From a virus: a DNA stretch of 53,395 bases. Every line of letters starts with the position of its first letter. The first letter of the stretch is position 1. Location of the stretch: the IMG/VR virus record IMGVR_UViG_3300043466_002220, positions 1-53,395 of that record. One strand, written 5' to 3'. This document shows positions 1,422 through 48,765 of this stretch, piece by piece. Under the pieces are notes generated by a model. It did not search any database and was not told the DNA's origin. It was given only the letters and a program-made list of their open reading frames with translations. A program made the position numbers and the translations under genes.

Positions 1422-4400
1422 TTATTTAGCACAAATTTTATTAATTTCTTTAATATCTTTAATATTACTAACAAGTTCTTTAAATTCTTCAATTGTTCCT
1501 TCAAAATCTTCTATTTTTTTGTCATTTAATTTTAAAGCATTTTGAAACATTTTAAGTTGTGTATCTTCATTAGCATTTTTAAATATTTCAACAACGTTAG
1601 ATTCTTTTAATGTTTCAGTAATAGTTTCAACAATTTCTTGAGATTTATTCAAATCATATTTATATTCTAAACCTTCATATTTTAATATTTTATTAAAATT
1701 TTCAGATATTTCATCTAATATAAATTCATCTTTAATTACTTCAGATAATGCAATCATCACATTGTTTTCAGTATATATACCGTCAATATTTATTTTTCCA
1801 AATCCTGCGTAACTAATTACAGTAGCTTTTGAATCATTTTCATCTTTAGATATCAAATTCCATAAAATTTGCATTATAGAATCTTTATCACCTATATCAT
1901 TACCTATTTTTCTATTTTGAATATTGACTTGTTTAAATAATTTTACAATTTCGTTAATTGAAACTTCATTTTTATTATTTAATTGATTACTTGTTGTAGT
2001 TTTGATAGGTTGTGAAACATCTCCACTATAACTCAAACTTGCTAATAATTCTTCAGCACTTAAATCTTCAACTTTTTCAGAAGGTACTTCTTTAGGTTGT
2101 GTTTTATTACTATTAGTAACTGTTTGATTTAAATAAATATTAGAATAACCTTGAAATGTTGGTTCGTTAACTACTGCATTAGTTGTTAAAACAGGAGATT
2201 GTTCACTTAATAAATATTTAAGATAATCATCATTATTAAATGTTGAAGTTTCATCTTTAGTAATCAAAACATTATGTCTTTTATACATTAAATACTTTAC
2301 AATTGCTTCTTGTTGTAATTCTGTTAAACCATTTAATGTATCTGTAGTATATGTATAATGACCAATAGAATCATTAACTTCTTTATTTACCTTTTGTAAT
2401 AATTCTCCTAACGCTAATGTTCCGTTTTCATCAACAATTAATTTAGTCTTAGTATTAGTATTTTGAAAAAATACAATAGTATTAATTAATCTTTCTAAAT
2501 TGATTTCAATAGGTTCGTTACTTTTTTCAATTAATTCTAATTCAGGTAAAACTTCATTTAAATTATTTGTTTCAATAAATTCTCTTAATGAGTTATAGTC
2601 AAAATTTTGAGCTTCAGAACTTTGTTTATTTTTCATTAAATTTGAATAAAGTTTAATTAGTTCAAAAGTTTGTCTTGCTTTATTTTCACTTAATCTTGAA
2701 GTGTTTAATTTTAAATAAAACATTTTACCATTTAACATTGGTATTTTTAGAAAAACTTCTCCTCTATGCATATCTTTTAAAGAACTATTTTCATCTAACT
2801 TATCGTTATAAGTAAATTTAGTTTCACCTTTATTTGATACATATACAGTATTCTTTTTAAAGTAATCTAACTTTTGTTCTTGAGTCATTCCTTTAAAAAC
2901 ATCTAATTCTAAAATATTAGAATTTTGTTTTCCTAATTTTAAAACACCAGAAAATTGTTTTTTAATATTTCCTTTAATACCTTCAAAACTACCTTTATTA
3001 TCAATTAACGCTTGTACAATTGATTTTCTTAAAGGTAATATTTCATTATTAAATACATTTAGTGAATCAGGATTTTTATTAATATTATCAGTTAATGCTT
3101 CTATAAATGAAAATACTTTTTTATTACCATTTTTAAAATTAACTTTAATAGGTAATTTTTCTTCTAATTCTTTAATTTCAGATTCTGTAAGATTTTCATT
3201 TTTTAATTTTAATAATATTTCAGAAACATTATTTGAAACAATATCTCCTAATTCAAAAGTAACTTCATCTTTAGTTTTATCACGAGATTCTTTTTCATAT
3301 TGAACAAAAGGTTCTAATATACTATATAATGTTTCACCTGTATCTCTATTAGTGCTAAGAACTTTAGCAGAACCTTGATTTTTATCTGCATTACTAGGAT
3401 TAGTAGATTCTTCTAATACAACTAATTCTTTTGGTGAACGATCATATTCATTATTATCACTATCTACTTCAGCATTTTTAGATGTTTGAACTGTTTCTAA
3501 ACCTTGTATATTTGTTTTTTCACCAACGTTATCTGTTGTTTCAGGTGTAGTAGTAGTTCCAAAATCTTTATCTTCTTGAAACTTTTCAGCATCTTTTTCT
3601 TCAGCTTGTTGTTGTTCTAATTGTTTTTGTAGTAATTCTTTATGACCTAATTCTTTAAATACATCTTCAATTTTACTTTGAATAATATCATTTTCTGTAT
3701 ATTTAGAATCTAGTTTATTAACATAGTTTATTAAATCTTCTTTTGAAGATATTGATTCTAAATCTGAAATAACTGTATCGTATTCTAATTCAACTTCTGG
3801 TGAAGTAGCTTTTTCAACTTTAGTTGTTTGATTTACAAATTTATCAAATATTTTATTTACTTTTTCAGAATCCCAAAGTTGATTATTAATTCTATTATTA
3901 ATACTTTTAATTTTTTTTGAAGTATTTTCAATATCTTTATTAATTCTTACAATACGAGGATCTTCTTCAAACTTATATTTAAAAGCATCATCTTGAGCAT
4001 TTTCATCAACTATTTCATTAGTTTTAATCATTACATTATCTTCTAATTCAGATAACAATTCTGATTTTTGTTGATTTAATTTATTAAGTTGTTTTTTAGA
4101 TTCATATAATAAACCTTCTTTATAAACATAATTGTCAGCTAAATAATTATAAAAACCTATTTTTTGTTCATCAGTAGCATTTTCATTATTTAACACAATT
4201 AAATCTCTACTAAAATCTTGATAAGTTTCATATTTCTTTTGCATTTTTTCAGCACGAGAAATTAAATCTTTAACTTTAGATTCAGCTTGTTTGTTTTCAT
4301 TTGTAGATTGAACATCTTCAGATTTAATAGTTGTTTCTAAATTTTCTCTTAATGCTTGAATTCCTGTTTCACCTTTTCTTGCAAACGGTAATAAGAATTG

Positions 4401-42235: not shown

Positions 42236-42266
42236 CAAAGATAATACTTTTTTTTGACAATTCCAA
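42236..42266 (-). promoter_or_regulatory. Bacteroidota-type promoter for the ClpP-like gene
   Basis: On the minus strand TTTGGAATTGTCAA (TTG at 42264-42266) is followed after 20 nt by TATCTTTG (42236-42243), 25 nt upstream of the start codon. It is the closest match to the shared promoter pattern of this window. Confidence 0.85.
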
Positions 42267-42305: not shown

Positions 42306-42341
42306 TAAAAAAACCCACTAAATGCAATAAAGCATAGTGGG
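42306..42341 (-). terminator. Intrinsic terminator of the minus-strand RNA
   Basis: On the minus strand CCCACT pairs with AGTGGG and an inner ATGC with GCAT, followed by seven T and a second T-run. No gene lies directly upstream on this strand; it ends the RNA that starts at the promoter 42580-42610. Confidence 0.85.
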
Positions 42342-42573
42342 TGCATTAATATAATTAACATTACTTAATTATATTTAAATCATATAAAGTTATTTAACTA
42401 ATAGATATAGCGAGGTTTCCCACAAAAACGTTAGTTCTGTAGAAAACCTTGGCTTACCAGTGTTATTGAAGTCGTCATACCTCGCAAAACCCGTCTAGTG
42501 GAGGCATCTCTATCAACCCTTAGCCTTTAATCCACTCAACAATATCCTTAATAAGTTGCTTATTTATTTTACT
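42342..42573 (-). ncRNA. Structured non-coding RNA of about 230 nt, own promoter and terminator
   Basis: Bounded by a promoter (42580-42610) and a terminator (42306-42341), with no open frame of length. On the plus strand GCGAGGT (42410-42416) pairs with ACCTCGC (42479-42485), and AGTGGA (about 42497) pairs with TCCACT (about 42531) with an inner AGGC/GCCT helix. It is GC-richer than its surroundings. I do not recognise the family: it is not a tRNA, and 6S or tmRNA features are not evident. It lies in the divergence zone, so a regulatory role at the switch between arms is possible. Confidence 0.65.
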
Positions 42574-42579
42574 GAACTG

Positions 42580-42610
42580 CAAAGATATAACATTTATTTG
42601 ACAATTCCTA
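42580..42610 (-). promoter_or_regulatory. Bacteroidota-type promoter for the minus-strand RNA
   Basis: On the minus strand TTAGGAATTGTCAA has TAG (42608-42610) in the place of the -33 TTG, and TATCTTTG (42580-42587) follows after 20 nt. The rest of the extended -33 region is identical to that of the ClpP promoter. Confidence 0.7.
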
Positions 42611-42689
42611 ATTTTTTAGTGATTATTTTCAAATTATTTTATTATACCAATAGCTTTTAGTAAAAATATTTTTTTTTCAAAATTTTCAA

Positions 42690-42850
42690 AAAGTTTTTAA
42701 TTGACGTGAGTGTTGACTAACCCAAAATCATACCCCGACTTGTACAAAACTTTGGAGTGTACCCGTCAAGGGAATTGTCGGGAGCTCCTAATGTATAACT
42801 ATGTGTTATTGAGCTATGAATCGGCCTTGACACTATAATATCTTATTATT
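42690..42850 (+). promoter_or_regulatory. Structured 5' leader with possible pseudoknot, upstream of the 147-aa gene
   Basis: CCCGAC (42734-42739) pairs with GTCGGG (42777-42782), and GTCAAGG (42765-42771), inside that loop, pairs with CCTTGAC (42825-42831) beyond it, so the two helices interleave as a pseudoknot. AGCTC (42783-42787) can pair with GAGCT (42811-42815). The segment is GC-richer than its surroundings and ends 20 nt before the start codon. It could be a cis-acting RNA or part of a separate RNA; no known riboswitch is recognised. Confidence 0.5.
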
Positions 42851-48656: not shown

Positions 48657-48765
48657 GATTAGATGACAGAAATGGAATAATGTACTCTATTTAACTAGAT
48701 GGTATTGTTTGGAAACAATTAATCAGGTAGTCGCTACCATATGGGTTCGAATCCCATTCTAATCT
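48657..48765 (+). tRNA. tRNA-Ser (anticodon GGA) with an inserted hairpin
   Basis: The acceptor strands GATTAGA (48657-48663) and TCTAATC (48758-48764) pair perfectly. The anticodon arm ATTGT-TTGGAAA-ACAAT has a canonical 7-nt loop with U33 and anticodon GGA, which reads UCC/UCU. A long variable arm (GGTAG, TCG, CTACC) and a T-arm (ATGGG, TTCGAAT, CCCAT) follow, as expected for a class II tRNA-Ser. Between the D-arm (ACA/TGT) and anticodon arm there is an extra segment of about 20 nt with a TCTA/TAGA hairpin, so the gene is 109 nt instead of about 88. Confidence 0.65.

Follow-up and report, generated by a model that had tools for sequence, protein, structure and literature searches.

A group of crAss-like phages almost certainly carries a conserved, structured RNA gene, which comparison of related loci shows to be free-standing, pseudoknotted, the predicted first unit of the late strand and furnished with a promoter of the late class. 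It was studied in a virus record of 53,395 bases, analysed over its whole length and called the window in the following. Late genes reside on the minus strand of the window, where Pfam identifies crAss-type major capsid, muzzle, ring and cargo proteins and where terminase, portal, GroEL and PhoH are also encoded. These minus-strand structural (late) genes extend from 1.4 to 42.2 kb, and plus-strand genes predominate beyond 42.85 kb. Since the terminase is only about 40-43% identical to its best Crassvirales matches, the window represents a crAss-like phage outside the genera among the matches listed.

Limits of the RNA gene

An earlier note on this DNA had proposed that, where the two genome arms diverge, the minus strand carries a free-standing RNA gene bracketed by a promoter and an intrinsic terminator, and the predicted signals bear this out. 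The gene and its parts are as follows.

42580..42611, minus strand: promoter, with the -7 box TATCTTTG at 42587-42580 and the -33 region TTAG at 42611-42608
42306..42575, minus strand: predicted non-coding RNA of ~265-270 nt, delimited by promoter, terminator and homologues; its start is placed a few bases past the -7 box
42386..42559, minus strand: conserved core, row 1 of alignment A2 and of covariance model R1 (160.4 bits)
42306..42342, minus strand: intrinsic terminator, from our own scan and folding; a scripted match is present in 19 of the 22 distinct members

The promoter reads TTAGGAATTGTCAAATAAATGTTATATCTTTG on the minus strand (42611-42580) and fits the -7 box of the Bacteroidetes consensus (-7 TAnnTTTG, -33 TTTG) as given in the available text of PMC7366714. 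The fit at -33 is loose, with TTAG in the window and TTTG or CTTG in relatives, and a sigma-70 scan of the window did not include the RNA promoter among its calls. TAnnTTTG or TAnnTTTA lies upstream of the RNA in all 21 distinct members with upstream sequence, its position relative to the core being -25 to -28 in 19 members, -89 in L081 and -110 in L015. A tRNA gene is found between promoter and RNA on the contig that holds the last of these loci (L046:2076-2148, plus strand), which suggests a joint transcript of tRNA and RNA.

The terminator consists of ACCCACTATGCTTTATTGCATTTAGTGGGT followed by a T run at 42342-42306 and was missed by the built-in terminator scan because the loop limit of that scan is 8. 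Three members are without a scripted terminator: the contig of L070 breaks off at this point, a longer-looped terminator is visible by eye in L088, and none was found in L023. Between the two signals, about 265 nt are free of any conserved protein, the longest plus-sense open reading frame in the interval measuring 21 amino acids and being unshared; a conserved small protein here would have contradicted the RNA gene. The raised GC content pointed out earlier is likewise evident, with 32% across 42306-42580 and 43% across 42404-42541, whereas the flanks have 12-14% and the whole window 26.5%.

One part of the earlier proposal, a regulator of the early-late transition, is not supported, since the promoter belongs to the class that precedes other late genes. 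Promoters of this class (TTTGGAATTGTCAAA-like, TATCTTTG) stand before minus-strand genes at 42236, 41636, 30924, 18420, 10849 and 1390; the loose motif occurs 19 times in the window versus 10.9 times in shuffles, a modest excess. The RNA thus appears to be one of the late set rather than the switch to it. For crAss001, the available text of PMC8375218 has the virion RNA polymerase transcribe the early genes and, probably, the host enzyme the middle and late ones; by analogy, host RNA polymerase would be predicted to make the RNA described here.

Homologues and genomic position

The first two relatives, which are near-identical, were reached through flanking proteins, 34 loci via a terminase search and more via two DNA patterns derived from the RNA core. 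A profile built from seven cores scored above 84 bits in 41 of the 127 loci gathered by then, and the next best score was below 17; two of these 41 had been cut from the window itself. The 41 loci comprise 22 distinct core sequences and, by our count, lie on 27 contigs besides the window. Alignment A2 holds 19 distinct members and leaves out the near-duplicate L003 and the truncated L061 and L070. Covariance model R1 gives members 110-184 bits and all other sequence searched at most 23.

A homologue of a late-strand gene of the window follows downstream in the same direction in 28 of the 30 member loci examined, and in the remaining two the contig stops too soon. The identity of this gene is not fixed, a ClpP homologue following the RNA in only five of 30 rows (L003, L032, L106, L119 and L061). 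On the upstream side, the closest large gene is in most cases divergent, and at times an additional gene intervenes.

None of the 4227 families of Rfam 15 exceeded its gathering threshold in the window interval and no family matched the RNA in six relatives. The RNA was not found in ten whole phage records, crAss-like for the most part and otherwise from other Bacteroidetes phages (best 19.3 bits), it is absent from the relatives L026 and L030 (records of 101-103 kb), and blastn of two member cores against known phages returned chance matches only. Nor was a host copy found: none of 66 genome stretches is a member, with best scores of 20.7 bits in nhmmer and 23 bits with the covariance model.

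Several other elements were noticed in or near the slot occupied by the RNA. A single-copy conserved block of ~80 nt (...CTAACCCAAAATCATACCCCGACT..TTTTGGGATATACCCGT-like), located at 42690-42770 on the plus strand of the window between the RNA promoter and the divergent gene, is also present in the relatives without the RNA L013, L019, L024, L030 and, weakly, L026, and is a candidate for an early (virion RNA polymerase) promoter or an origin. In three of these relatives, the same slot is taken by a second, unannotated RNA-like element sharing AATGCACTG (L019 ~1320-1710, L024 ~3720-4075, L030 ~3590-3940); the copy in L024 has no Rfam match and a fold z of -3.0, and a pattern scan for the element yielded mostly unrelated coding sequence. 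L030 furthermore encodes a tmRNA at 25-403 on the minus strand (Rfam, 81.9 bits), here in a crAss-like phage, and open reading frames that we read as GIY-YIG-like homing endonucleases lie in or beside the RNA slot at L030:3962-4507 and L013:1668-2396. In the window itself, at 48657-48765 (plus strand), there is an Rfam tRNA match of 33.2 bits that contains a large insertion, has an extended anticodon region and is not called by ARAGORN.

Structure of the RNA

The following helices were assigned, with cells counted over alignment A2.

42537..42558, minus strand: P1, CAA 42558-42556 with UUG 42539-42537, invariant
42454..42554, minus strand: PKa, 42554-42550 with 42458-42454, 95/95 cells paired
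42465..42543, minus strand: PKb, 42543-42540 with 42468-42465, 76/76 cells paired
42497..42536, minus strand: P2, hairpin AGTGGA/TCCACT with variable apical part, 70.2% of cells paired
42410..42485, minus strand: P3, GCGAGGT 42485-42479 with ACCTCGC 42416-42410, 114/114 cells paired over six pairs

Covariation supports P3, PKa and PKb, and because PKa and PKb cross P3, the predicted fold is a pseudoknot. In an all-pairs covariation helix scan of A2, P3 took rank 1, PKb rank 2 and PKa rank 5; ranks 3 and 4 went to short helices that are mostly wobble or one-sided. When the paired columns were left out of the tree, PKb underwent 11 pair changes on it and P3 eight, and the two sides of the helices nearly always changed in concert. 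PKa shows few independent events, its two covarying inner pairs resting on one change each. All six pairs of P2 (42536-42531 with 42502-42497) change on both sides, so that both paired domains put forward earlier, GCGAGGT/ACCTCGC and AGTGGA/TCCACT, are present and covary. P1 never varies; covariation therefore speaks neither for nor against this helix, which is unproven.

The full structure is paired in 92.0% of cells, versus 34.6-46.8% in slid controls and 75.6% in shuffles, and PKa and PKb together in 171/171 cells versus 26-50% in slid controls. Compensatory changes, the mark of a structured non-coding RNA class, hence go beyond the slid controls; on two of five measures the shuffle control is not exceeded. 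The full transcript folds with a z of -3.36. Folding of the core only is unremarkable (z -1.51 in the window, +0.55 in L032 and +1.41 in L025), the minimum-energy fold of the window sequence contains P2 and lacks P3, and the RNAalifold consensus is weak. The real evidence for the RNA is homology and covariation, not fold stability.

Resemblance to Cas13b repeats

Two stretches of the core resemble the halves of direct repeats of type VI-B CRISPR systems.

42471..42490, minus strand: GTTTTGCGAGGTATGACGAC, similar to Cas13b direct repeats in their 3' half
42414..42426, minus strand: TTTGTGGGAAACC, similar to Cas13b direct repeats in their 5' half, though less clearly

Across members, the first corresponds to GUUUUGNGAGGUAUGACRAC and the second, downstream, to GUGGAAACC. 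The two repeat-like halves pair with each other in P3, as they would in a circularly permuted repeat. The RNA pattern GGTATGACRACTTCNNNAAC matched 66 stretches in 84,980 genomes, about as many as expected by chance. When R1 was applied to these stretches, L128 gave a ladder of matches ~70 bases apart, and the ladder is a CRISPR array whose repeat reads GTTGTAGAAGCCTACCGTTTGGGTAGGTATGACAAC. A similar array occurs in L148, and both adjoin a gene for Cas13b (NF038190, E 1.6e-140 and 1.9e-120). L128 and L148 are the only ones of 136 pattern loci (L058-L193) with the match inside a clear array, the preceding 12-mer being merely duplicated in L152 and L176. In three draws of Bacteroidota genomes, 2/395, 5/397 and 15/393 were Cas13b-positive. 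Arrays of the form GGTATGACAAC-spacer-GTTGTNGAA occurred in 2/384 genomes drawn, both Cas13b-positive; in that order, 15/393 genomes are Cas13b-positive.

Repeats were then read near Cas13b; some loci were without an array, on short contigs or with none found. Left out of the repeat test were L270 (28-nt core), L273 (degenerate ends), L275 and L280 (two copies each) and a low-complexity match in L267. At L273 (G1130:C206), the Cas13b frame contains one internal TAA and the adjoining array has degenerate repeat ends. The last 20 bases of ten repeats were compared with the RNA, and for L272, L279 and L148 none of 100 shuffles was as good. The repeats of L279 and L148 had been found by the pattern and are hence biased; this does not apply to that of L272, GTTGTAGAAGCTCTCACTTTGGAGGGTATGACAAC, which was reached via Cas13b only and scored 14.6/20 against 10.7 +/- 0.45 in its shuffles. 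The other seven repeats are individually weak, being equalled by 2, 6, 9, 17, 28, 35 and 52 of 100 shuffles. For nine of the ten, the best site most often falls on column 96, 97 or a neighbour.

A scoring matrix was made from eight repeats, without the two found by the pattern. With this matrix the 3'-half site of the RNA ranks 11 among 106,752 positions in the window, and it is among the first three in all 18 relatives' loci (eight times first, seven times second, three times third). The tail probability of the score is ~1e-5 to 3e-4 per position, which over ~270 positions amounts to a chance of roughly 0.3-8% for some match, and the idea was formed post hoc. For the 5' half, the match is clear for two repeats only (L251, 0/100; L263, 1/100 shuffles); it ranks 1007 in the window, and both halves as a pair rank 22 among 106,676. 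In the natural repeats of L272, L279 and L148, AGAAGC occurs together with GGGTATGACAAC or AGGTATGACAAC, and in the phage RNAs GGAAAC goes with GGTATGAC(A/G)AC, by which both strands of the internal loop resemble one subgroup of repeats. A comparison of 115 spacers from Cas13b loci with these phages gave no convincing match, the best covering 17 nt.

Discussion

The resemblance to Cas13b repeats points to counter-defence rather than to early-late regulation. We tentatively propose that the transcript may be an RNA anti-CRISPR that acts as a decoy for Cas13b, the type VI-B effector of the host, a reading to which we give somewhat more than one chance in three. With slightly greater reserve, it might represent the first type VI RNA anti-CRISPR, a permuted repeat held by a pseudoknot that Cas13b would bind and would neither process nor use. 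The member consensus at the first site would mimic the loop and 3' half of the repeat and GUGGAAACC its 5' half, with P3 as the repeat stem and UUUUG ahead of P3 as the opened loop; the two former ends of the repeat would be bridged by a segment of 40-60 nt and locked by the pseudoknot. Cas13b would bind the decoy and gain no usable guide, and therefore fewer effectors would carry anti-phage spacers. Binding, sequestration and relief from immunity by this RNA are what we infer from its likeness to the repeat.

Sequestration appears feasible because, according to the available text of PMC13187072, an extra VI-B2 guide supplied in trans sequesters Cas13b and raises plaque numbers about 1000-fold. 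Just as this extraneous crRNA (ecrRNA) of P. gingivalis, the phage RNA would be a non-targeting RNA that occupies Cas13b, which in its case is only proposed; in contrast to it, the ecrRNA is encoded by the host and keeps its repeat intact (PMC13187072). Common to VI-B repeats or crRNAs and the phage RNA are a UUUG loop followed by GGUAUGACAAC, a 5' GU(A/G)GAA(G/A)CC and a stem joining the halves, whereas in the phage RNA the halves are reversed, the GUUG/CAAC ends are not both kept and there is no array. Among the closest known systems are the RNA anti-CRISPRs (Racrs), which are also small phage non-coding RNAs with a CRISPR-repeat-like element and expression of their own and are also proposed to occupy a Cas protein; in the available text of PMC10651486, a survey is reported to have found solitary repeat units for every CRISPR type except type VI, and no type VI Racr was found in our literature search. 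The RNA described here is phage-encoded with predicted promoter and terminator of its own, as Racrs are; as for a solitary repeat, it has the highly ranked 3' half, swapped halves and a weak 5' half. Unlike in Racrs, the repeat is split and permuted within a larger pseudoknotted RNA that is conserved across a phage group.

Several points count against the decoy: the repeat halves stand in swapped order compared to a real Cas13b repeat, mimicry of a repeat leaves P1, P2 and the pseudoknot unexplained, and fast arms races usually do not leave strong conservation. In addition, the second RNA-like element in the same slot is without the Cas13b repeat motif (ranks 48-356), which mildly counts against an anti-Cas13b role common to the slot. 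There is a chance not far below even that the RNA is a conserved late structured RNA with another role in trans, either protein binding, with a partner from phage or host, or RNA-RNA regulation, and that its likeness to Cas13b repeats is a coincidence. Such a role would accommodate the pseudoknot, P1 and P2, which call for an explanation beyond repeat mimicry, as well as the late-class promoter, and the repeat match is subject to a look-elsewhere effect. However, it offers no reason why both arrays reached by the pattern should be type VI-B, nor why an independently found VI-B repeat should fit the same site.

A cis-acting leader or attenuator of the late operon would agree with the RNA being the first unit on the late strand and with L023, where no terminator was found and an open reading frame begins 67 nt past the core. 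We consider it improbable in view of the terminator in 19 of 22 members, the second promoter (42236) ahead of the next gene in the window and the variable identity of that gene among members. Equally doubtful is a ribozyme or the relic of a group I intron. The covarying helices follow the order PK, hairpin P2, P3, PK', hairpin, P3', which we take to be like the group I order P3-[P4-P6]-P7-P3'-P8-P7', and GIY-YIG-like reading frames are close to the slot in L030 and L013; but no Rfam intron family, including RF00028, matched up to E 5, the RNA has its own promoter and terminator and no exons, and P3 is without a bulged guanosine site, presumably a further argument against an intron. A role as replication primer or origin RNA where the arms diverge would fit the switch in sign of the GC skew at the RNA locus and the adjoining single-copy conserved block, yet the transcript has a predicted terminator, the block is retained in relatives without the RNA and gene direction also shapes the skew, leaving this reading with little credence. 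Least credible of all is a small protein or leader peptide (MTTSxTLxSQ...) starting from an ATG in the core. No stop interrupts this frame within the first 11 codons in 20/20 members, but lengths of 11-80 amino acids, unrelated ends, changed columns of about equal frequency (by eye in A2, 9/20 at codon positions 1-2 versus 5/10 at position 3), several of them paired columns, and the absence of a Shine-Dalgarno sequence at the usual spacing speak against a peptide.

Other identities were considered and rejected. For a riboswitch, tRNA, tmRNA or snoRNA, all Rfam matches in the region are at chance level, and neither ARAGORN nor Rfam found a tRNA or tmRNA in the interval. A role of ACGACUUC as antisense to the 16S decoding region was dropped because about half of the members have A at the variable position and would mismatch. 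A likeness to Y RNAs and their TROVE protein partner (Ro60) would have made the early TROVE protein that is reported for crAss001 (PMC8375218, available text) a possible RNP partner. A TROVE gene occurs in two of 29 records, crAss001 and cr111_1, which have no convincing match to the RNA, and in none of the RNA-bearing records searched.

In the parts available to us of the literature on crAss-like phages, including PMC8040213, PMC8375218 and PMC7886860, we found nothing comparable to this RNA gene; the main text of PMC8040213, a study that predicted RNAs in human microbiomes by the thousands, does not mention crAss. The crAss-like phages are abundant viruses of Bacteroidetes, and this pseudoknotted RNA, conserved and with a fixed place in the genome, provides a concrete, testable gene in them. 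If the Cas13b reading is true, it would extend RNA-based anti-CRISPRs to type VI and would provide a natural inhibitor of Cas13b, a widely used RNA-targeting enzyme.
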